A stretch of 64,000 bases of DNA, taken from Paenibacillus aceti (GTDB lineage Bacteria; Bacillota; Bacilli; Paenibacillales; Paenibacillaceae). The stretch lies in contig NZ_KZ987724.1 of NCBI RefSeq assembly GCF_003614185.1, positions 5,376,668-5,440,667 of the forward strand. Direction: 5' to 3'. The notes under the pieces are model-generated. The model was not told where the DNA came from. It ran no database searches and saw nothing but the letters and a program-made list of their open reading frames with translations. The number at the start of each line of letters is the position of its first letter. Positions within the stretch are counted from its first letter, which is position 1. A program made the position numbers and the translations under genes. Positions 9,955 through 64,000 of this stretch are shown here, piece after piece.

Positions 9955-10760
9955 TGAGTATACCGAAAGCTCTGACAATTGCGGGCTCGGATAGCGGGGG
10001 CGGCGCTGGAATACAGGCCGATCTGAAGACTTTTCAAGAGCTGGATGTGTTCGGCATGTCGGCTATTACCGCGATTACCATCCAGAACACGCTCGGCGTG
10101 GAGAACGTATATCCGTTGCCGCCGGAGGCGTCAGCCGAGCAGATCAGGGCTGTCGGTTCTGATCTGGGTGTCGATGCACTTAAGACGGGAATGCTGTTCA
10201 ATGCCGAGATTATTAAGCAGGTGGCTGAGCAAATCTCCATCTTCGGCTGGAAGAACGTCGTTGTCGATCCCGTTATGATCGCCAAGGGCGGAGCAGAGCT
10301 GCTGCTACCGGAAGCGATCCAGGCGATGAAGGAGCATCTGCTCCCGCTCGCCTTGATCGTCACGCCGAATATTCCCGAGGCGGAGAGCCTGTCAGGCATC
10401 ACGATTCGGACGCTGGAGGATCGGCGCGAGGCGGCGAAGCGCATCGCAAATTATGGAGCGAGATCGGTAGTGATTAAGGGCGGACATGGTCAGGGCGAGC
10501 AGATTATCGATCTGCTGTATGATGGCAGCTCTTTTACCAGTCTTGGTGGCAGGCGTATAGAGACGAAGCATACACATGGAACGGGCTGTACCTTCTCGGC
10601 GGCGATCGCGGCTGGCTTGGCGAAGGGGCAATTGATCGAGCAGGCTGTTGAGGAAGCACGGGCCTTCATTCAGGCGGCGATCGAAGATACGCTGGAGCTG
10701 GGGCAAGGGCATGGTCCGACGAATCATTGGGCGTATCGCCGCAGAAAGGAACGGTTCTGA
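9954..10760 (+). CDS. thiD: Hydroxymethylpyrimidine/phosphomethylpyrimidine kinase
   Basis: ThiD carries out two successive phosphorylations of HMP to HMP-PP. The ribokinase-like fold is marked by [21 protein letters not shown] at the N-terminus, the DPVMIAKGG segment, the TPNIPEAE segment and the [14 protein letters not shown] anion hole near residue 205. The ATG at 9954 follows GGAGG by nine bases; a GTG one codon earlier is possible. The gene overlaps thiM and thiE by one base each (TGATG junctions), so the operon is translationally coupled. Confidence 0.94.
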
Positions 10761-53749: not shown

Positions 53750-54478
53750 ATGGACAATCTCATTCCACGTTTGCTCATTTTCTTGATCACGCTTTATATG
53801 GGCCTACCTTTCCTACTGACTCGAATATTCGGTTGGGGGGTCTTCCGCAAGGCCAGTCGTAAGCGGGCAGAGCGCCATGTTGCCTTTACATTCGATGATG
53901 GACCTGATCCGCGCTATACGCCCAAGCTGCTTGATCTTCTTCGGGACCGAGGCGTGAAGGCAACCTTCTTCGTTCTTGGCAGCAAGGCGGAGAAATATCC
54001 GGAATTAGTGAAGCGCATGCACGAGGAAGGACATCAGATCGGCATTCATAATTATACGCATATGCTGAATTGGATCATGTCTCCAAGAAACATACGTCGA
54101 AAACACGTTGAGCGTTCTGCAGACATTATCCAACGAATTACGGGAGAACGTCCGACCTACTATCGTCCTCCTTGGGGGATTTTGAATATTGCGGACCTGT
54201 TCCTGCTGCGTAAGGCATATCGGCTCGTGTTATGGTCGGTTATCGCGCGCGACTGGAAACTGAATACGGGTGGACATCATTTGCGTCATCTGCTGTCCAA
54301 GCATATCCGTCCCGGGGCTGTCATCGTATTGCATGATAGCGGCGATACTCTTGGGGCTGACAGAGAAGCTCCCGGACAAATGCTGACAGTGCTTCGGGAC
54401 ATCCTGTCCGAGACCGAACGAAGAGGCTTGAAGTGCGTGCGCACGGATGAATTGCTGAAGCTGGAGCGTGCAGCGTAA
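53750..54478 (+). CDS. Polysaccharide deacetylase (NodB domain)
   Basis: A 242-residue carbohydrate esterase family 4 enzyme. An N-terminal hydrophobic helix (LLIFLITLYMGLPFLLT) anchors it to the membrane. NodB motif 1 is TFDDGPD (about 47-53), motif 2 is HNYTHM (about 99-104), motif 3 is RPPWG, and the later motifs show WSVIARDWK and VIVLHDSG. It removes acetyl groups from GlcNAc-containing polymer such as peptidoglycan or a wall polysaccharide. It is coupled to the YkoP-like gene. Confidence 0.92.
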   Translation: MDNLIPRLLIFLITLYMGLPFLLTRIFGWGVFRKASRKRAERHVAFTFDDGPDPRYTPKLLDLLRDRGVKATFFVLGSKAEKYPELVKRMHEEGHQIGIHNYTHMLNWIMSPRNIRRKHVERSADIIQRITGERPTYYRPPWGILNIADLFLLRKAYRLVLWSVIARDWKLNTGGHHLRHLLSKHIRPGAVIVLHDSGDTLGADREAPGQMLTVLRDILSETERRGLKCVRTDELLKLERAA

Positions 54479-54586: not shown

Positions 54587-54765
54587 CATTTGTAAGGCGG
54601 ATTCCGTTTGTCTAGACTACTATCCCAGTCGAAGACGATCATTTTTGAAGAGTGGGCGGGCAGCAAAAATATGATGAATAATTTAGTGAAAGTGAAATCA
54701 AAGCTCTATTTTGCCGATGAAACAATAGGGGGAATAGTAGAAAGTAATATTTGATGGAGGTCAAC

Positions 54766-57657
54766 ATGAAACGATTCATTTCAGCGGTGTTATGCCTTAT
54801 GTTCATCCTCACGGTGGCTCATTCAGGTACGGTGCAAGCCAAGGGGGATAACGTAAGTGCCATTAGCGAGCAGCACTATACACGTATCGGCGAAGATTAC
54901 GAAGTATTTGACGACAACGTGTTACTGTCGAAAAGGGACGGGAGCGTTTGGACGTGGGTCATAAATAAAGATTATTTAGAAACTTCAGATTACTATATAG
55001 CTGAAATGCTCCAAATTCCGGGCTTGCAGGATGTGAAGCAATTCAGGTACAAATCCCGTGAGAAGAAGAACAGCAGAGAGATTATTAACTACGTTGCATT
55101 AAAAAAGGATGGAACCGTATGGTACTGGGACTCCAAAGTTACTGAAACCTACGGTACTACTATACATAGTCCTATGGGAACTCCATCGCCCATCACAGAG
55201 TTGAATCATGTCACTTCACTCGTTGCTGATTTTTTTTACGACAATTCTAACTTCAAGACCTTGTTCGTATTAAGATCAGACGGCTCGGTTTGGAGCTGGG
55301 GAAGCGAACTAGGCGGCGTCTCGTCGATTCCGATTCAATCCAGGCTGCTTGATGATGTCGTATCCATAAGCTCGGCGAACGGTTTCGCCTATGCAATTAA
55401 AAAGGATGGTTCGGTTTGGAAATGGAGCACAAGTGACTACCTTCCGCATAATATCTCTAAAGACAAGAGGCCAGAACAGGTCAAGGGTCTTAGCGATATC
55501 GTCAAGATCGAGACGGGCGCTTATCCAAACTTTGCATACAAGAAAGATGGCACGGTTTGGGACTGGTCGGCATATAACTCTGCGAGTGTTCCCGAACAAT
55601 TACATGGAGCAACCGGCGCGCGAAGTATCGTTGAATTCAGCACGATGCTGCAAGATCGATTTATCGATTCCATTTATGCTTTGCGGACGGATGATCAGCT
55701 CTGGTCCGTGTACAACGACGATAAAGTGTTCCAAGGGCTTACAGACATCGTCTCCATACACAATAAAGTCAAGGACAGGTATTCTAAATGGTATTATGCC
55801 TTGAAAAAGGATCAGACCTTGTGGGCATGGGAAGATGATTATTATTCCTTGCCCAAGCTGGTTGTGTTTACGAAAGGAACAGTGGCAGGTTATGGCTCTG
55901 GCGAAGCAGAGCAACCTACTGGTGGGGTAATAGGCACGCCAACTGGTGATAGATCGGGGACAACAGGCCAACCAACGGATAGTCGGAATGGGACAACAGG
56001 TACACCCATCGGGGGTCAAACTGAAAAGACAAAGCAACCGACGGGGAGTCGTCCTGATGCGGGAGATCGAGCAACCGGAGAAACTGGAACAACAAACCAA
56101 CTAACTGGCGACCGTTCTGAGACAAAAACTCAACCTGCGGTACGGAATTCACCGGAAATTAGCCTGTTTCCGTTTATCACGATGCTGCAGCCGGGCGGAC
56201 AACAGATCATTACCGCAAGCAATGTGCTTACCGGGACCCAAATAACGTATACCATAGACGATCCGAGCATAGGAACTATATCGAATGTGAATGGCATCCC
56301 CGTTATTACCGCGAAAAAATCCGGACAAACTGTTGTACGGGTAACCGCGACCCGAGCCGGTTTTCCAGACGAGACCGCCTATTTCTTGTTGTATGTTGTG
56401 GATGGCAGCATACTGTCCAATACGTATCTAACGGCTGTCGGGTCAATTCCTGACGCTGACAGACAGAACCCCGTTATTGTGGAGGGACTGACACAAGCGG
56501 GAGAGCTTGTGATCACAGCCGCAAGCAGCGGAGAGGTGGCTCCCGTTAACGGCCAGCTAGTCGTAACGACCGAGTTGATGGACCGCTTAGCAGGCAATGC
56601 GTCAAAGGCGAAATTAGCGGTAAAGCAGGCGCTGTCGGAGAACCGAATTACGCTTGCAAGAGAGTTGATCGTGAATGCAGAAATTTTGCCCTCGTCCGGA
56701 CAAAACGAATATATTTTCAAGCTGTACAAGAATAGCTTCACGGGCCGGAAGGATATCGACTATATTACCATTCAAGCGGGGGATGCGAAGCTGGTGCTGA
56801 ATGTTGTCACCGCAGATCGTCTGTTCGATTCACGTACGGTGATTGTAATTCGTCTGATCCAAGCAAATAACGGCGGATTTCAAGTGCTATTCTCAGATGA
56901 ACAAGGTCAGGAGCTACCGAACGTATCAAGTAATATTCTGATCATTCTGCCTGCAAAGCAGACGAATGCAACACATACCAGCGTGTTCTATTCAAATGGT
57001 AAAAAGGCGCAGCCGATCGGCGGAAAGTTCAATCCGTCCCAAAACGGCATAGAAGCGGAAATCAACCGTTCCGGAACGTATTTCGTGGACGATAATCCCA
57101 AGTCATTCCCTGATGTTGACGATCGAGATCCAGAGCTGCAGCAAGCGGTTCAGTTCCTGGCTTCCAAAGGAATCGTGACCGGGAAAGAGAACGGCAACTT
57201 TGAACCCGATTCCCCGCTCACCCGTGCAGAGTTTACGGCTATGCTTGTAAGAGCCTTTTATGCATTGGATGAGACGGCGACGGAGAGCTTCTCCGACGTG
57301 CATCCGCCACAATGGCATCATCCCTATATCGCTTCATCAGAGAAAAAACATATCGTCGAAGGTTACCCTGACGGCACGTTCAAGCCGGATAAAACGATAT
57401 CCCGTGAAGAAATGACCGCCATCGGCGCAAGATACCTGCATGAAAAGAAACATTATTACTACCCTGCGAATCCGGAGGATTACCTGAATCAATTCATAGA
57501 CAAAGAAACCATCTCCAATTGGGCCAAGCCAACCATGTCCTTGGCTGTGAAGCAGCATCTAATCGATGTTCCTGCCAATAAACGGATTAACGCCCGCGAG
57601 GCCGTCACGCGCGGGGAGGCTGCGCGGATGTTGTATAGGCTTTATTTGTTGGTTTGA
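54766..57657 (+). CDS. SLH-anchored surface protein with RCC1-like repeats
   Basis: A 963-residue exported protein. A signal peptide (AVLCLMFILTVAHSGTVQA) is followed by about seven RCC1/YD-like repeats ending in forms of KKDGTVWxW (KRDGSVWTW, KKDGTVWYW, RSDGSVWSW, KKDGSVWKW, KKDGTVWDW, KKDQTLWAW), which should form a beta-propeller (about 30-370). A Gly/Thr/Pro linker of degenerate 9-12-residue repeats (about 375-460) precedes an Ig-like (Big) domain and an unassigned beta region. Three SLH domains end the protein (about 780-963). GGAGG lies five bases before the ATG at 54766. It sits on the S-layer; its ligand is unknown. Confidence 0.88.
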   Translation: MKRFISAVLCLMFILTVAHSGTVQAKGDNVSAISEQHYTRIGEDYEVFDDNVLLSKRDGSVWTWVINKDYLETSDYYIAEMLQIPGLQDVKQFRYKSREKKNSREIINYVALKKDGTVWYWDSKVTETYGTTIHSPMGTPSPITELNHVTSLVADFFYDNSNFKTLFVLRSDGSVWSWGSELGGVSSIPIQSRLLDDVVSISSANGFAYAIKKDGSVWKWSTSDYLPHNISKDKRPEQVKGLSDIVKIETGAYPNFAYKKDGTVWDWSAYNSASVPEQLHGATGARSIVEFSTMLQDRFIDSIYALRTDDQLWSVYNDDKVFQGLTDIVSIHNKVKDRYSKWYYALKKDQTLWAWEDDYYSLPKLVVFTKGTVAGYGSGEAEQPTGGVIGTPTGDRSGTTGQPTDSRNGTTGTPIGGQTEKTKQPTGSRPDAGDRATGETGTTNQLTGDRSETKTQPAVRNSPEISLFPFITMLQPGGQQIITASNVLTGTQITYTIDDPSIGTISNVNGIPVITAKKSGQTVVRVTATRAGFPDETAYFLLYVVDGSILSNTYLTAVGSIPDADRQNPVIVEGLTQAGELVITAASSGEVAPVNGQLVVTTELMDRLAGNASKAKLAVKQALSENRITLARELIVNAEILPSSGQNEYIFKLYKNSFTGRKDIDYITIQAGDAKLVLNVVTADRLFDSRTVIVIRLIQANNGGFQVLFSDEQGQELPNVSSNILIILPAKQTNATHTSVFYSNGKKAQPIGGKFNPSQNGIEAEINRSGTYFVDDNPKSFPDVDDRDPELQQAVQFLASKGIVTGKENGNFEPDSPLTRAEFTAMLVRAFYALDETATESFSDVHPPQWHHPYIASSEKKHIVEGYPDGTFKPDKTISREEMTAIGARYLHEKKHYYYPANPEDYLNQFIDKETISNWAKPTMSLAVKQHLIDVPANKRINAREAVTRGEAARMLYRLYLLV

Positions 57658-57921: not shown

Positions 57922-58146
57922 TCAAGACTGTTTTTCATTGAAACGCTTGGAGATATTCGTCTGACCAAGAATATAGTCAATACTTACGTTGTAAAACTCG
58001 GATAACTTAATTAACACTGAGCTTGGGACGTCCAAGTTCCCACTTTCATATCGGGAATAGGTTGCCTGAGAGATGTTTAGATAATCTGCCAATTGCTGTT
58101 GCGTCAAATCCTTATCCTCACGTAAATCACGTATTCTCTTATACAT
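57922..58146 (-). CDS. XRE-family HTH transcriptional regulator (74 aa)
   Basis: A single-domain Cro/C1-type regulator. The helix-turn-helix is LTQQQLADYLNISQATYSRYESGNLDVPSSVLIKLSEFYNVSIDYILG. The ATG at 58146 follows GGGTGATG; the frame opens five codons earlier. It is divergent from the DUF6809-like gene, and palindromic candidate operators lie in the space between, so autoregulation plus control of that gene is likely. There is no sensor domain. Confidence 0.9.
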   Translation of the reverse strand: MYKRIRDLREDKDLTQQQLADYLNISQATYSRYESGNLDVPSSVLIKLSEFYNVSIDYILGQTNISKRFNEKQS

Positions 58147-58172
58147 TCGTTCATCACCCAAGCTAAGTTTAA

Positions 58173-58304: not shown

Positions 58305-58607
58305 ATGAAGAATATTTTAGAGGAACTCTACTACGGTAACCTGCATCCCGAAGAGTGTATTATCCCAACTGATCCTGAATATCGTCCTCTCAACAAAAAG
58401 ATTTCTAAATTGATGGAGGAAGCAAGGGAAAGACTTTCGGAGAAGGATTTCGCAACACTTGAGCAGATTTTGGATTTGACGAGTGACTCTAGTTCCATGG
58501 TTACAAGTGCTTCTTTTGTAGAGGGATTCAGGATGGGGGCTTTGGTGATGGTGGAGGTGTTTTGTGGTGGGAGGTTTTTAGGAAGTGAGGTCGATAGGGA
58601 GTTTTAG
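58305..58607 (+). CDS. DUF6809-like small protein (100 aa)
   Basis: A 100-residue helical protein starting MKNILEELYYGNLHPEE, the opening I associate with the DUF6809 family of Firmicutes. The middle holds a charged helix pair (LNKKISKLMEEARERLSEKDFATLEQILDL) and the end a hydrophobic helix with VEGFRMGALVMVEVF. GGAG precedes the ATG. Its function is unknown; such genes are common near XRE regulators and prophage remnants. Confidence 0.75.
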   Translation: MKNILEELYYGNLHPEECIIPTDPEYRPLNKKISKLMEEARERLSEKDFATLEQILDLTSDSSSMVTSASFVEGFRMGALVMVEVFCGGRFLGSEVDREF

Positions 58608-58640
58608 ACATAATGATGTGGTATGGATAATGATCTAAGA

Positions 58641-58672
58641 GCTCTTGCTGATAATATCAGTAGGAGTTTTTG
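58641..58672 (+). terminator. Terminator after the DUF6809-like gene
   Basis: CTCTTGCTGATA and TATCAGTAGGAG pair fully with wobbles around a one-base centre (effective loop larger), followed by TTTTTG. Confidence 0.6.
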
Positions 58673-58802
58673 TTGAAAATGAGAGGATTATTTCCCTGCA
58701 GATTATTCCAATTCTATAGTACAATAGGCTTATAATAGAGCAGTCAATTGTATTTTGTAGTCGTTCTTAAAATACTCAACATACATATATGGTAGGTGTG
58801 CT

Positions 58803-59531
58803 ATGACTAATAAAGTGAATATGAGAGAATTATTTCTTGATATGCAGCAAGAAATGATTATGGAATTAAACAAATTACGTAAGCATGTTACACATGCCCC
58901 AACTAAAGGAGATACGGTTGAATTAAGTTGGATCGAGTTTCTAAGTACTTATTTACCTAACCGATATTGCGTAGACACAGCCTTTATTGTAGATAATACT
59001 GGTATACGCAGCGATCAGATTGATCTGGTCATTTATGACCAACAATACTCTCCTTTTGTTTTTTGTCATTCTGGTGTTAAGTACATACCTGCTGAGAGCG
59101 TTTACGCAATCTTTGAAGTAAAGCAAACACTAAACAAGCAGCACTTATTATATGCAGCTGAGAAGGCAGAATCGGTCCGCGCTCTTGAGCGTACGTCCGT
59201 ACCTATCATTCATGCCGGTGGGATTTATCCACCAAGACCAACTTTCGACATCGTGGCTGGTCTTATTACTACATCTTCTGACTGGACACTACCATTTGGG
59301 AAGCCATTTCAGGAAGTGAATAAAGAGTTAAAGCCTTGGCAACGCCTGAATATCGGTTGTACGTTGGATAGCGGTTCTTTTCTCTTAAAAGCGGATGGGA
59401 CATTTGATATTAGTTCTAAGGAAGAGTCTTTGATTTTCTTTTTTATTAAATTATTTATTCAACTTCAAAATTTGGGTACCGTGCCTGCAATGGATATTGA
59501 TTTATATAGTCAGGTGTTAGACTCTATTTAG
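58803..59531 (+). CDS. DUF6602-like PD-(D/E)XK domain protein
   Basis: A 242-residue protein. Asp74 in SDQIDLVIYD and Glu105-x-Lys107 in IFEVKQ, with a hydrophobic strand between, make a PD-(D/E)XK-type nuclease core; an upstream Glu (ELSWIEFL, near 40) may complete it. This arrangement and the phrase VYAIFEVKQTLNKQHL fit the DUF6602 group, which turns up in phage-defence neighbourhoods. There is no signal peptide. The start at 58803 has GGTGTG upstream, a poor ribosome binding site. The DNA is AT-rich compared with the genes left of 57.7 kb. Whether it cuts nucleic acid is inference. Confidence 0.72.
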   Translation: MTNKVNMRELFLDMQQEMIMELNKLRKHVTHAPTKGDTVELSWIEFLSTYLPNRYCVDTAFIVDNTGIRSDQIDLVIYDQQYSPFVFCHSGVKYIPAESVYAIFEVKQTLNKQHLLYAAEKAESVRALERTSVPIIHAGGIYPPRPTFDIVAGLITTSSDWTLPFGKPFQEVNKELKPWQRLNIGCTLDSGSFLLKADGTFDISSKEESLIFFFIKLFIQLQNLGTVPAMDIDLYSQVLDSI

Positions 59532-59793
59532 CGAATTAATCGTATATAGTTGTGCCTAAACTTATGAGAATGTTAGTTAATCAAGAGAGAAATTGAAATT
59601 CGATAACACTGAGTCAATGCTAAGGGCACCCTTGGTCGTAAAAAGCAGTAAGCAAAGAAGATGTCAACAAGTGGTTCTACGAGGTTAAGTTCGATGGACT
59701 TTTTTTAACCTTGAGGTCCAGTATTAGAACGTTATACGACAGAGTTGATATAAATAAATTTAAATACTCCAAATTAATCATAGGAGAGTAATT

Positions 59794-61044
59794 ATGAGAC
59801 TAAAAATTGAAGAATGGTTGTCTAATCAAACTGTTTCTGAAGAAGCTCAGAATTTACTTCAAGAGTCAATCGTTTGTTATAAGGCTTCAGCCTACAGAGC
59901 TAGTTTTTTATTTTCTTATTTGTTTTTTCAAACGGTATTAAAAGAACGAATATTATCTTCTGAAATACCAGGTGATGTTCCATTATCTAAATGGAATGGA
60001 ATAATACAAAATTTACGTAACGATGACAAGTGGGATGAAGAAGTTTATGAAGTTGTGAAGAGAGGTTCTGGAAACTGGGTCATATTCAATCTAAATGACG
60101 ATCTGAGGCAGCAAGTATCATACTGGAAGAATAGACGTAACGATTGTGCACATGCTAAGACAAATGGCATTCAAGCATCACACGTAGAATCATTTTGGGC
60201 ATTTATTCAATATAATCTTCCAAAGTTTGTGGTGAATGGTGGAAAGGCAGCACTTTTAGAAAAAATAAAAGTACATTTTGATATTGCCTTGACAGCCCCA
60301 AATGCAGATTTTGAGTATATTATTCAGGAGATTGTTAATTCGATTTATGAGCATGAGTATAGGAAATTTATTGAAGATATTAATCAGTTATTAGGGGATA
60401 CATTTTTTGATTCTTCATATGAATCTGAACGTAAAATTAAATTTTGGTTAAGAATATTTGGTTTAAATGAAGCTTTTGATAAATCATTGATTGAGTATCT
60501 TCAGGAGAATGAAAAATTATGTAATGCACTATTGAAAAGTGATTCCAGTAAAGTAGTATATTTTAGAGGGCATCCTCAGTTTATTCGTAAACTCTGGTTT
60601 GATGGTAAAGTTGATGTAAGTATACTCGCAGCATTGTTTAGAAATAATCTGATCCCAACTGATCAAGAGGAAGAAGCAATAGTAAATTTCATACGTTCTT
60701 CTCAGCCAGTATATCCTGAAAGTATTCCAGAAGAAGATATGAATATCTTAGTATCAAAAGGTCTTCCAATAAAATTAAAAAATATTGCATTTGAAGAGCG
60801 CTGTATAGGTGTTTTCGATTGGGCGAATCATGCAAAAAGATGGCTAATAGTTTGGTATATTAAAAAGTATGGTATTGATGAGGTAGTTGTTAAGGCGTTG
60901 TCAATTACTTTTCAAGGTGCAAATCCGTGGCATCTAAAAGATGCTTTGAAAGAAATTTTCGATGAAGATTCAACACTAAAAGACTCTTATATTCGTATTG
61001 CTCAGGATAAAGGGTATCACTTGCCGGAGTTGCTAGGTTTTTAA
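59794..61044 (+). CDS. HEPN-like protein of unknown function
   Basis: A 416-residue, strongly AT-rich gene; the ATG at 59794 follows AGGAGAG. The N-terminal ~135 residues form a helical domain with the motif Arg115-Asn116-Asp-Cys-Ala-His120 (RNDCAH), the RNxxxH pattern of HEPN ribonucleases, inside YWKNRRNDCAHAK. The remaining 280 residues are helical and unassigned; the stretch WLIVWYIKKYG is notable. HEPN proteins often act as RNA-cleaving effectors of immunity. The next gene is 231 bases away. The HEPN call rests on the motif and helix context only. Confidence 0.62.
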   Translation: MRLKIEEWLSNQTVSEEAQNLLQESIVCYKASAYRASFLFSYLFFQTVLKERILSSEIPGDVPLSKWNGIIQNLRNDDKWDEEVYEVVKRGSGNWVIFNLNDDLRQQVSYWKNRRNDCAHAKTNGIQASHVESFWAFIQYNLPKFVVNGGKAALLEKIKVHFDIALTAPNADFEYIIQEIVNSIYEHEYRKFIEDINQLLGDTFFDSSYESERKIKFWLRIFGLNEAFDKSLIEYLQENEKLCNALLKSDSSKVVYFRGHPQFIRKLWFDGKVDVSILAALFRNNLIPTDQEEEAIVNFIRSSQPVYPESIPEEDMNILVSKGLPIKLKNIAFEERCIGVFDWANHAKRWLIVWYIKKYGIDEVVVKALSITFQGANPWHLKDALKEIFDEDSTLKDSYIRIAQDKGYHLPELLGF

Positions 61045-61274
61045 CTTAGTTTTGAGATGTTTAAATGATACATATGTTCAAATTTCTAGGGCTATCCAAA
61101 ATTATCAAAGAAGTGCTCCGCTTTTTAGCAAAGTTGGGGCATTTCCCCTTTGGTTGTCGGTGGTTAACACAGAAGCATGTCTAGACAATACACGGCTGAC
61201 CAAGAAAAAAGCTGTCTAAGGCAGGTCGTTAGTAGATACAATAACGTTTTACGAAAGGGATGCAATGCAAATAA

Positions 61275-62135
61275 ATGATAGAACCTAAAGAGAGAGCAAG
61301 AGACTTAAAGAAATTGGCTGAAATTGCGAGGCGAATTTCACGAATAGAAAACAAAAAATATGCTACTACACCAAGAACTCTTTACGCGGAGGAATTATTT
61401 GAAAAAACACTTTTAAATGTTTATAGCTTTATTAGGCTTTGGCCACATGATAAAGAAAGTAAAAAATTATTTGATGCAAGTTCCCTTGCTAGTTTAGGAA
61501 GGAATATTATTGAAACTCATAAAGTATATCATTACATTTGTGAACGAGGTATAAGTCAAGAAGAGTTTGAATTGAGATGGATTATAATGGTATTACATGA
61601 CGGTTTGGGTAGGGATAGAATACTTAACAAACTAGGTTTTTCTGAAGGTGATGATAATAAACAGGTAAGTATGATGTCTGTATCATTTGCAGAGGGGATA
61701 TTGAACCAAAATCCTTTATATAATTTATTAGATGAAAAATTGAAGAAGAAAATAATGAAAGGTGAAAAACCATATTTATTTGAAAGAATTTCCAAACGAA
61801 AATTTCCAATAAATAAGGAATATGAATCTGGCATATATAATTTGCTTTCGAATAGTGTTCATTCTTTTCCTTTGGGGCTCATTAATTACTCGGGCGGTAT
61901 CTCTGAGGAATTCCATTTAGGAATGTACCATCTAGTAACTCTTGCAGTAGAAGTTAGTATTATGTATTTTGCTTCTGTAATAGATTCTTATATTGGTCTA
62001 AGAAGATTTTCGCATTTAATGAATAAAGATGATTTGAAATTTATAAAAACCATGATTAATAATAAAAATTTTTATGAATGGCTAAATCAAAGAAAAACCA
62101 AAGGTATGAATGGCCCTTTTTCATATCAAGGTTAA
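61275..62135 (+). CDS. Unrecognised helical protein, possibly DUF5677-like
   Basis: A 286-residue AT-rich gene; the frame starts ATG at 61275 without a strong ribosome binding site. The product is mostly helical. LGRNIIETHKVYHYICERG (near 75) and the later NLLSNSVHSFPLGLINYSGG (near 190) resemble the Arg/Glu and Ser...His features of DUF5677-like proteins, but I am not certain. A hydrophobic helix (VTLAVEVSIMYFASVIDSYIGL) follows near 225-245. It lies between the HEPN-like gene and the HTH/caspase pair. The function is unknown. Confidence 0.6.
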   Translation: MIEPKERARDLKKLAEIARRISRIENKKYATTPRTLYAEELFEKTLLNVYSFIRLWPHDKESKKLFDASSLASLGRNIIETHKVYHYICERGISQEEFELRWIIMVLHDGLGRDRILNKLGFSEGDDNKQVSMMSVSFAEGILNQNPLYNLLDEKLKKKIMKGEKPYLFERISKRKFPINKEYESGIYNLLSNSVHSFPLGLINYSGGISEEFHLGMYHLVTLAVEVSIMYFASVIDSYIGLRRFSHLMNKDDLKFIKTMINNKNFYEWLNQRKTKGMNGPFSYQG

Positions 62136-62307
62136 TTTAAGTTTACTTGTAATCCAGAACTCTTCATTATTCTATTGACTAGTAATGGATAGTAATCTTG
62201 TATGTATATCGCTCTTTACAATACTGGCAGATTCAGTTGTTGCTTCGAAACTGATGATCCTAGGAAACAGTATATTCTATCTATAGATATTTAAGAGAGG
62301 TGAGATT

Positions 62308-63561
62308 ATGGGGAGAACAAATACTTTCTTAAGCGGAACGATTACTGCAGATGAACGGGAGCATTTATATAGTGAGATTTGGACAGAGCCAGTAAAAACC
62401 GTGGCTGAAAGGTACGAAATCTCTGATGTAGCTTTGAGAAAGCATTGTATCCGATATGGCATTCCTCTACCACCGAGAGGTTATTGGGAAAAATTAAAGG
62501 CTGGTAAATCTGTGCACAAACCGGCGCTTCCTAAAGTAACAAGTGAGTTAAGAAAGCATATCCGTAACTATGTAATCAAGTATAAATATGATGTGAAGAA
62601 ATTAACGGATGAGGAACTTAAATCAGGAGAGGAAATGTTTTTATTAACAGATGATACTAAAAATTATATTAAAGAAGTTTGCTCGAAAATTACGGTCAAA
62701 TCCCAGCTTCGTGATCCTCATCCCCTAATTGTCGAGCATCAAGAAGAAATATTATATAGGAAGAAAAGAGATAAGGCAGTTGAGAGGGCCAGTTTCAACT
62801 ATTTATATCAATCAAGTATTAAAAGTAAGTACAAGGAAAACAAAGCAATTCTCCCCATATTTGTATCTCCCAATCAAGTAAAAAGAGCCTATCGAATTAT
62901 AGACACCATAATTAAGACATTACCTCATCTAGAGAGTCGGCTTTCTATCGGGCACCAAAAGGATCAGGGTTTTATCGATGTGATGCATGTTACATTCGAA
63001 TTCGAATTGAAAGAAGTTGAGGAAAAACGAAAGTCTAAAAAACAGACTGAAGAGGCATCTGGAAAACTAGCTCCGTCGTTAGTACTTTCATTTACAGCAA
63101 ATAGATCTTCATGGAACAGGGAATATTCGGAACAGTTAGAGTATAGAGATACTCCTTCAGAACCTTTGGAAAGCAAGTTGGATTCGGTTATAACCAATTT
63201 ATTTATATTGGCAAATAGGTTTCTTGCAAAAGATGAATTATATCTCAGGGAACTTGAGAGAAAGTGGGCTGAGGAAGAAAAACAGTACCAGTTAAAGAAA
63301 CTAAAACGTAGGGAAGAAGAAAATGTAAAAATATTGGAGCAGCTTGTTCAGGAATGGGACCAGTCCAGAAAGTTTAGGGAATTTGCTGAATTTCTTGAAA
63401 ATGACGCAACAGGAATGCAAGATTCTCAGCAGAAGCAGAAAATTTTAAATAAGGTAAAATGGATAAGAGAAAAAGCAGATTGGCTTGACCCCCTTATAGC
63501 AAAAGAAGATGAACTTCTTGGAAAAAGAAAAAGTGCCTTAGATTTACTTGAAGTTGAATAA
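62308..63561 (+). CDS. HTH and coiled-coil protein paired with a caspase-like protease
   Basis: A 417-residue protein, ATG at 62308 after GAGAGG. Residues about 15-50 (EHLYSEIWTEPVKTVAERYEISDVALRKHCIRYGI) form a helix-turn-helix, followed by a conserved-looking PLPPRGYWEKLKAGK segment. A basic middle domain (about 90-200) and a mixed alpha/beta part (200-300) lead to a long charged coiled coil (about 300-375). There is no enzyme signature. Its stop is six bases before the start of the caspase-like gene, so the two should act together; a DNA-binding or sensor role with coiled-coil assembly is inference. Confidence 0.68.
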   Translation: MGRTNTFLSGTITADEREHLYSEIWTEPVKTVAERYEISDVALRKHCIRYGIPLPPRGYWEKLKAGKSVHKPALPKVTSELRKHIRNYVIKYKYDVKKLTDEELKSGEEMFLLTDDTKNYIKEVCSKITVKSQLRDPHPLIVEHQEEILYRKKRDKAVERASFNYLYQSSIKSKYKENKAILPIFVSPNQVKRAYRIIDTIIKTLPHLESRLSIGHQKDQGFIDVMHVTFEFELKEVEEKRKSKKQTEEASGKLAPSLVLSFTANRSSWNREYSEQLEYRDTPSEPLESKLDSVITNLFILANRFLAKDELYLRELERKWAEEEKQYQLKKLKRREEENVKILEQLVQEWDQSRKFREFAEFLENDATGMQDSQQKQKILNKVKWIREKADWLDPLIAKEDELLGKRKSALDLLEVE

Positions 63562-63567
63562 TTAATT

Positions 63568-64000
63568 ATGAATCAAGATGGTGATTTAATGATTGAGGAG
63601 ATTAGGGAGAAAACCTATGCGGTAATCGTAGCTGTTGAGAATTATCAATTTGGTATTCCGAAGGTTGAGTATGCAAAAAATGACGCTAGTGAATTTCGAA
63701 ACTGGTTAATAAATGATCTAAAGGTTCCCAATGAGAATATTAAGCTATGGTCTGATAGCAATGTGACTAGATCAGCGCTAACTGAAGAACTTCAATATGA
63801 TATTTCTAGACTAAGTGAAAATGATAAGTTTATTTTTTACTATGCTGGTCATGGTTTTTTTGATGGTGGTTCTAACAAGATAACGACATGGGATACTCAT
63901 CAAAACAATCTTAGAGAGACCACTGTTTCACTGAACTGTATATTAATGGAATCTCTAAGAAAATCCAAATGTGATAAAAGCCTGATATTCATAGATGCCT
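63568..64000 (+). CDS. Caspase-like cysteine protease (peptidase C14), cut by the window end
   Basis: The frame is open from ATG 63568 (a second ATG, 63589, is also possible) to the right edge; 144 codons are visible. The N-terminal beta strand and loop YAVIVAVENYQFG, then AKNDASEFRNWLIN, match the start of the caspase fold. The catalytic histidine motif is FYYAGHGF (His95). The last visible residues SLIFIDA are the strand before the catalytic cysteine; the next codon begins with T, as TGT or TGC would. The rest of the protein, and any fused effector or recruitment domain, lies outside. It is the second gene of an operon with the HTH/coiled-coil protein. Confidence 0.85.
   Translation, partial: MNQDGDLMIEEIREKTYAVIVAVENYQFGIPKVEYAKNDASEFRNWLINDLKVPNENIKLWSDSNVTRSALTEELQYDISRLSENDKFIFYYAGHGFFDGGSNKITTWDTHQNNLRETTVSLNCILMESLRKSKCDKSLIFIDA

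Follow-up and report, generated by a model that had tools for sequence, protein, structure and literature searches.

A NucC effector gene left without its cyclase at the end of a probable defence hotspot in Paenibacillus aceti

In cyclic oligonucleotide-based antiphage signaling systems (CBASS) that use NucC, a cGAS/DncV-like nucleotidyltransferase (CD-NTase) senses infection and makes a cyclic trinucleotide, which activates the DNase NucC, and the cell is killed; this is established for NucC. The described systems closest to the gene discussed here are the NucC of Escherichia coli MS115-1 (PDB 6p7o, 6p7p, 6p7q) and the two-gene cyclase-NucC operons of Paenibacillus, among them those of P. gallinarum, P. 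nuruki and a P. rhizovicinus plasmid, three in which nucC is 79-90% identical to ours. Our gene lies near the right end of a 64,000-nucleotide stretch of the Paenibacillus aceti genome, called the window (C1:5376668-5440667 of a 5.6-Mb genome); DNA past 64,000 was also read, and its "ext" coordinates carry the window numbering on. The window gene shares with the E. coli NucC a near full-length homology and the aligned residues D74, E105 and K107. However, it has no cyclase in its operon, none was found in the genome, and its evolution is near-neutral. The Paenibacillus operons have the same cyclase 3' end ahead of nucC, while in the window about 40 bases are all that is left of the cyclase gene. 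We suggest, with a probability of roughly 0.8, that the island holding this gene is the left end of a chromosomal hotspot, where unrelated accessory and defence genes were inserted between fixed flanks and then decayed, and that nucC is an orphan stump.

The island is marked by a break in composition, with a GC content of 34.1% in 58756-64000 against 49.8% in 1-58000. It falls below 37% in 16 of 17 one-kb intervals of the island and in none of 229 in 1-58000 (minimum 39.5%). The initial annotation had described an AT-rich accessory island with five consecutive genes of immunity type. Its GC counts (23% in 60361-60420 and 60% in 10321-10380) were reproduced, the five open reading frames were found at their starts, all on the + strand, and the GC drop and the family assignments support the description. 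The two intergenic gaps given as 263 and 231 bases are present; on recounting they are 262 and 230, each one base shorter. A promoter scan was uninformative, with 20 sites against 23 expected. The products of island genes 1-5 are called P0001-P0005, G and L numbers denote other genomes and loci, and "own genome" is the source genome. The features are:

58758..58802, + strand: scar directly 5' of nucC, made up of roughly the last 40 bases of the deleted CD-NTase gene and a short spacer (blastn, alignment, anchored shuffle test)
58803..59531, + strand: predicted nucC, CBASS effector endonuclease gene, full-length, orphan (PADLOC, PDB 6p7o)
59794..61044, + strand: HEPN-like gene (P0002), with a conserved RNxCAH; also on viral contigs and plasmids
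61275..62135, + strand: weak DUF5677 relative (P0003), PF18928 below cut-off
62308..63561, + strand: helix-turn-helix (HTH)/coiled-coil gene (P0004), read by eye, of a widespread mobile family with plasmid and viral-contig homologues
63568..64000, on to ext 64251, then open in frame to ext 64935, + strand: caspase-like protease gene (P0005), Peptidase_C14

Gene 1 is predicted to encode the CBASS effector endonuclease NucC. In E. coli NucC, we take the catalytic residues to be D73, E104 and K106, of the PD-(D/E)XK type, and the ligand contacts to be R53, Y81 and T226; against this list, D74, E105, K107, R54, Y82 and T226 of P0001 align with the active-site and ligand residues. The earlier label, DUF6602-like, holds in Pfam (E-value 6.2e-32), and PADLOC is more exact, with matches to Effector/NucC at 3.4e-98 and to NucC at 1.1e-54. 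P0001 aligns with 6p7o at E 3.5e-56 over residues 7-238 of 242, and the relatives with solved structures are NucC proteins from E. coli, Vibrio and Serratia, together with an unnamed bacterial protein. No relatives of P0001 were found in viral contigs, and phage records gave two weak partial matches.

A search of 246 genomes of the family with P0001 gave a match in 34, and seven of these, own genome included, have a close CBASS-type nucC (at least 49% identity). In five of the six other genomes the CD-NTase gene lies directly 5' of nucC; in the sixth it lies three genes 5' and heads a four-gene operon with E1-E2 and JAB genes. The three of these six cyclases that were tested in PADLOC matched at 2.5e-87, 7.1e-86 and 5.8e-82, and all six were aligned and made into a six-sequence profile. 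In these relatives the CD-NTase would switch on NucC in the way described above. A pattern-based scan of a species-genome collection gave 16 nucC loci, two of them already in the family set (L059 = G230, L063 = G163). In 11 of the 16 an unsplit cyclase gene lies directly 5' of nucC; one of these is L062, where it is cut short near its end. It is split by an IS21-type insertion in L066 and lies elsewhere in the locus, with weak matches, in L071 and L072; in L069 and L073, both cut by contig ends, no cyclase was seen. Damage occurs in other NucC operons too: the IS21-type split (L066:268-3749), a frame shift in nucC (L064:6001-6725) and the cyclase shortened near its end (L062:5229-5948).

In the own genome the cyclase has been deleted down to a scar. 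When the cyclase-nucC operon of G230 was compared by blastn, the match in the window began 45 bases ahead of nucC, at a point that lies about 40 bases within the 3' end of the cyclase gene. Read in the former frame, the scar contains a stop, and its alignment with the relative shows single-base gaps. In an anchored test, in which the last 18 bases (the old stop and the ribosome-binding region) were omitted, 3 of 5000 dinucleotide shuffles and 7 of 5000 random 30-mers from the own genome scored as well. A SMODS search of the own genome found no cyclase, and the six-cyclase profile gave a best E of 0.046 over 51 positions, a search that a very distant cyclase might escape. A relocated cyclase elsewhere in the genome was rejected, as neither search found one. 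A possible cyclase remnant between genes 2 and 3 (12 residues; E 0.001, then 0.15) was taken as chance. Among the titles and abstract openings listed in our literature search, no work on orphan or cyclase-less NucC or on a CBASS orphan effector was found.

The selection on nucC was studied with a codon likelihood model written for this analysis, using eight nucC genes and 242 codons. On the window branch omega, the ratio of replacement to silent rates, is 0.43 against 0.063 elsewhere, with twice the log-likelihood difference (2dlnL) at 15.7. An omega of 1 is not rejected for the window branch (1.30), while it is rejected for the sister branch, G230 (19.3), which has kept its cyclase and has a branch omega of 0.098. 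When all eight tips were tested, the window omega was the highest, and a second topology gave 0.54 for the window. A count of changes by outgroup majority gave the window branch 11 silent and 14 replacement changes and the G230 branch 20 silent and 9 replacement changes. The nine window-specific residues of nucC include none of the named active-site or ligand positions. We read this as relaxed constraint on nucC after the loss of the cyclase. Because the cyclase is deleted to a scar and nucC evolves near-neutrally, on this one branch, the window nucC is most likely a dead or dying effector.

The initial annotation had also proposed to read past 64,000 and to compare gene neighbourhoods. Both were done, and same-genus genomes show the same flanks with different cargo. 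The left flank consists of:

53750..54478, + strand: polysaccharide deacetylase gene (Pfam 1.5e-33), 97% identical and in the same place in G249, two open reading frames in G262
54751..57657, + strand: SLH-domain surface protein gene (Pfam SLH 3.9e-27), 88% identical and in the same place in G249, several open reading frames in G262
57922..58161, - strand: Xre-type HTH regulator gene (HTH_3 3.9e-17)
58305..58607, + strand: DUF6809 gene (Pfam DUF6809 5.3e-32), the last conserved gene of the left flank, 86% identical and in the same place in G249
58608..58757, + strand: flank element that follows the DUF6809 gene on its 3' side and is matched in G249, G247 and G262; contains a strong hairpin (58636-58672)

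The hairpin of the flank element folds at -19.7 kcal/mol and was not listed by a terminator scan. The sequence of the element, from the DUF6809 gene to the scar, is matched in 5 of 41 same-genus genomes, own included; one of these matches, in G104, covers 29 bases in different surroundings and was dropped from the hotspot count. G249 and G262 have the same left flank (deacetylase, SLH protein, DUF6809, element) and the same right flank, a MOSC protein gene, but the cargo differs. In G249 (L193:6360-13931) it includes genes for a 916-amino-acid Mrr-nSTAND1 protein and for a PD-T7-4-like protein, as well as a JetD gene that is split into two pieces; in G262 it includes transporter genes. In G247 the right flank and the element are present, together with part of the Xre gene and, at the same site, 102 bases of the caspase gene of the island.

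The own genome has the unit in two copies. The island holds a second, diverged copy of the flank element (C1:5443087). The MOSC end and the sequence that follows it are repeated at ext 65078-65925 (L002:11746-12593), the left element is repeated at ext 66346-66540 (L002:13014-13208), and a second cargo then leads to a full MOSC gene at ext 76311. Such tandem units could be explained by imported units that were joined through recombination at the flanks. Within the second cargo unit, ext 68684-71859 (L002:15352-18527) holds two to three related direct-repeat genes, up to 89% identical over a stretch; one of them was tested and is Cu_amine_oxidN1. Near the right flank, L003:747-1676 encodes a 5'-nucleotidase family protein that matches the PADLOC candidate PDC-S08 at E 1.4e-137.

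A hotspot with decayed defences is an ordinary kind of thing, and one of the defences here is a CBASS reduced to its effector. Core defence hotspots such as cDHS1/2 of Pseudomonas aeruginosa (PMC10250203) and E. coli hotspot 7, with its degraded locus (PMC10121019), likewise combine fixed core flanks with variable defence cargo, some of it degraded. Compared with both, our hotspot is small and much of its cargo is broken; it was seen in four genomes of a single genus, the own one included.

The caspase gene is probably one such case. The caspase label given earlier to gene 5 agrees with a match to PF00656 (Peptidase_C14, 2.3e-11), and by the caspase motif we take H95 and C145 to be the His/Cys dyad. 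Just beyond the window edge the gene stops after 227 codons (ext 64249-64251), and the frame stays open for 227 codons more. A relative in G171 (1680 amino acids) can be aligned up to the stop and again after it, with a single residue separating the two pieces and the second piece at E 0.002, and the relative in G130 is also broken, with five stops. The gene is probably interrupted by an in-frame stop, which would mean a loss of caspase function.

The five genes are consecutive, on one strand and of immunity types, and this could be taken as the mark of one undescribed multi-gene defence system, as the initial annotation hinted. Its other suggestion, that several independent systems have accumulated, fares better, as no co-occurrence was found in linkage searches of 246 family genomes each, and the cargo between the fixed flanks varies. 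All five genes occur together in the own genome only. When only close nucC is counted, G230 alone of the other genomes has two of the five, on different contigs; with the weaker nucC class, two of the five are found in G048, G069, G055 and G130 as well, either on separate contigs or at least 100 kb apart. None of the five were side by side in the neighbourhoods read. Moreover, gene 1 is predicted to be the known effector NucC minus its cyclase and belongs to a cyclase operon, the caspase gene is probably broken, and P0002 has no constant partner. A single five-gene system is therefore very improbable, and we rejected it for the lack of co-occurrence elsewhere. A smaller unit, in which genes 4 and 5 would be the remnants of a two-gene caspase system, is suggested by the mere 6 bases between them. 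It is quite unlikely too, since the neighbourhoods read, which cover 5 of 10 genomes for P0004 and 5 of 7 for P0005, never show relatives of the two side by side, and none of 245 other genomes matched both. Finally, the orphan NucC could have found another source of its ligand in the following locus of the own genome:

C1:1,093,800-1,107,000: type III-B CRISPR-Cas locus (L056), with repeat arrays in three stretches, the first two parted by an IS66-type insertion sequence

The III-B operon encodes Cmr1, Cas10, Cmr3 and Cmr4 (PADLOC), and Cmr5 and a RAMP protein in the place of Cmr6 (Pfam). Its Cas10 (624 amino acids) carries GGDD, and its first 140 residues contain no HD pair, so that it seems HD-less, and a NucC-family gene (293 amino acids; PADLOC NucC 3.8e-80) lies right behind the Cmr operon. 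According to PMC8682760, cyclic triadenylate (cA3) from the type III-B Cas10 of Vibrio metoecus fires NucC, and HD-less III-B Cas10 with NucC is a known cA3 pathway; effector sharing across type III loci is proposed in PMC11229360. The window NucC could then be alive, fired in trans by cA3 from the own Cas10 as a second death effector beside the NucC of the CRISPR locus. P0001 retains the NucC active-site residues, and among the seven genomes with a close CBASS-type nucC only the own one gave a further match in that search. Under this proposal, the higher rate of replacement changes on the window branch would reflect adaptation to a new partner rather than decay. We consider the first idea unlikely and the second no less doubtful. 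The near-neutral evolution speaks against a live effector, the CRISPR locus already has a NucC of its own, and on the contig 4.3 Mb separate nucC from the Cmr operon (about 1.2 Mb on a circular contig). Nor is the coincidence significant, as a weaker-class match occurs in 28 of 246 genomes, own included, giving a chance of about 0.11. Capture by the CRISPR system is rated low because selection argues against it and weaker-class matches are common, with 27 other genomes having one. From 23 weaker-class loci read with 1.5-kb flanks, 22 are nearer to the CRISPR-locus NucC than to P0001, and 13 have an adjoining cmr or cas10 match. The NucC of type III-B loci (V. metoecus and L056) is of the same nuclease family, with the same presumed ligand; however, the window protein is only 28% identical to the CRISPR one, far closer to CBASS NucC, and not encoded near the CRISPR locus. 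Among the CRISPR-type NucC genes of the family (L013-L034) the glutamate of EXK is E in some and Q in others, and the own CRISPR copy has Q. The idea that this Q makes the CRISPR-locus NucC dead was dropped, as Q and E alternate across its relatives.

We prefer the hotspot with an orphan nucC. Unrelated anti-phage and other genes would insert between the deacetylase/SLH/DUF6809 genes on the left and the MOSC gene on the right and would then decay. Gene 1 would be the stump of a two-gene CBASS operon, from which the cyclase was deleted, leaving nucC as a presumably dead or dying effector. Several observations pull in the other direction. Support for the hotspot comes from three genomes, of which two have both flanks and the third has the right one. 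Across its 242 codons nucC shows no break in frame, and it keeps the residues taken to be catalytic and ligand-binding. Apart from the old stop and ribosome-binding region, the scar is only about 30 bases long, and a looser composition-shuffle test of the whole spacer was weak and not significant at its extreme, the observed score of 44 lying below the best of 1000 shuffles (50; mean 23). Other tips than the window deviate in omega: G113, which has its cyclase, is high (0.187, 2dlnL 6.8) and G144 is low (0.031, 9.1), while the five remaining tips have a 2dlnL below 4. The branch that yields the omega of 0.43, a point estimate, is short (0.07 changes per codon), and omega tends to come out too high on such branches. 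Each species is represented by one genome, so that variation within species is unseen. For the caspase gene, in-frame homology after the stop is found in one of four relatives only, at E 0.002 against a small database, and nothing matches the final 171 codons.

The locus offers a scar-marked example of how a CBASS operon may die, with the effector outliving the trigger, presumably since NucC is harmless when it has no ligand. It also shows that counting single defence genes in islands can overstate the working immunity. Having defined flanks, the hotspot is a place to look for defence genes in other Paenibacillaceae.

The island also carries a gene that probably still functions. The earlier HEPN-type RNxxxH label of gene 2 is borne out, as RNxCAH is invariant in all nine aligned sequences and, with the viral-contig copies, RNDCAH in seven of seven; P0002 is part of both sets. 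Like the HEPN ribonuclease superfamily, the homologues share an invariant RNxxxH, and the AlphaFold model, a confident one (pLDDT 86.7, pTM 0.63), is all helical with the motif at a helix end. Unlike that superfamily, P0002 matches no Pfam, NCBIfam or PADLOC model above chance and no solved fold. It gave no Pfam or NCBIfam family at E 1, no PHROGs at E 0.1, only chance-level matches in PADLOC, and no PDB or BFVD fold match at E 0.001. Cas10 and Csx1 were rejected as identities, their PADLOC matches (0.015 and 0.064) being at chance level.

Homologues of P0002 are found on six viral contigs (L133:5001-6290, L134:5001-6263, L135:5001-6263, L136:5001-6275, L137:4992-6248, L138:4992-5615), where the gene is a lone cargo. 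It stands behind terminase genes in L135 and L136, in the latter also ahead of an XkdF-type protease gene. In L137 a phage integrase gene directly precedes it, as does a like open reading frame in L138. On plasmids, 22 records match; the best 4 of the 22, all from Bacillota, were read and show no constant partner. The pairwise omega between P0002 and the G129 homologue is 0.146, i.e., purifying selection. Because of the motif, the purifying selection and the prophage carriage, P0002 is probably a working stand-alone HEPN ribonuclease that would abort phage growth by cutting RNA. It represents a prophage-carried HEPN-like family that Pfam, NCBIfam and PADLOC models do not match. In two genomes (L052:7034-9962, L053:8851-11566) relatives of P0002 lie directly behind an AbiJ_NTD3 gene.

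The profile searches that the initial annotation had called for identify, by Pfam and PADLOC, NucC, Peptidase_C14 and, in gene 3, a weak DUF5677 relative. P0003 matches PF18928 (DUF5677) at E 4.1e-4 with 20.9 bits, below the cut-off of 27.1. The pattern ESG..N.LSNS.HS is invariant in five aligned sequences, P0003 included, and no relative was found in viral contigs. P0004 gave no family above cut-off in the profile libraries; by eye, it has an HTH-like start and a coiled-coil-like end, and its relatives occur on plasmids and viral contigs. In two loci (L139:3337-6281, L140:3265-6290) relatives of P0004 lie behind a similar gene of 548-568 amino acids and a large serine recombinase gene (tested in L139), possibly forming a mobile unit.

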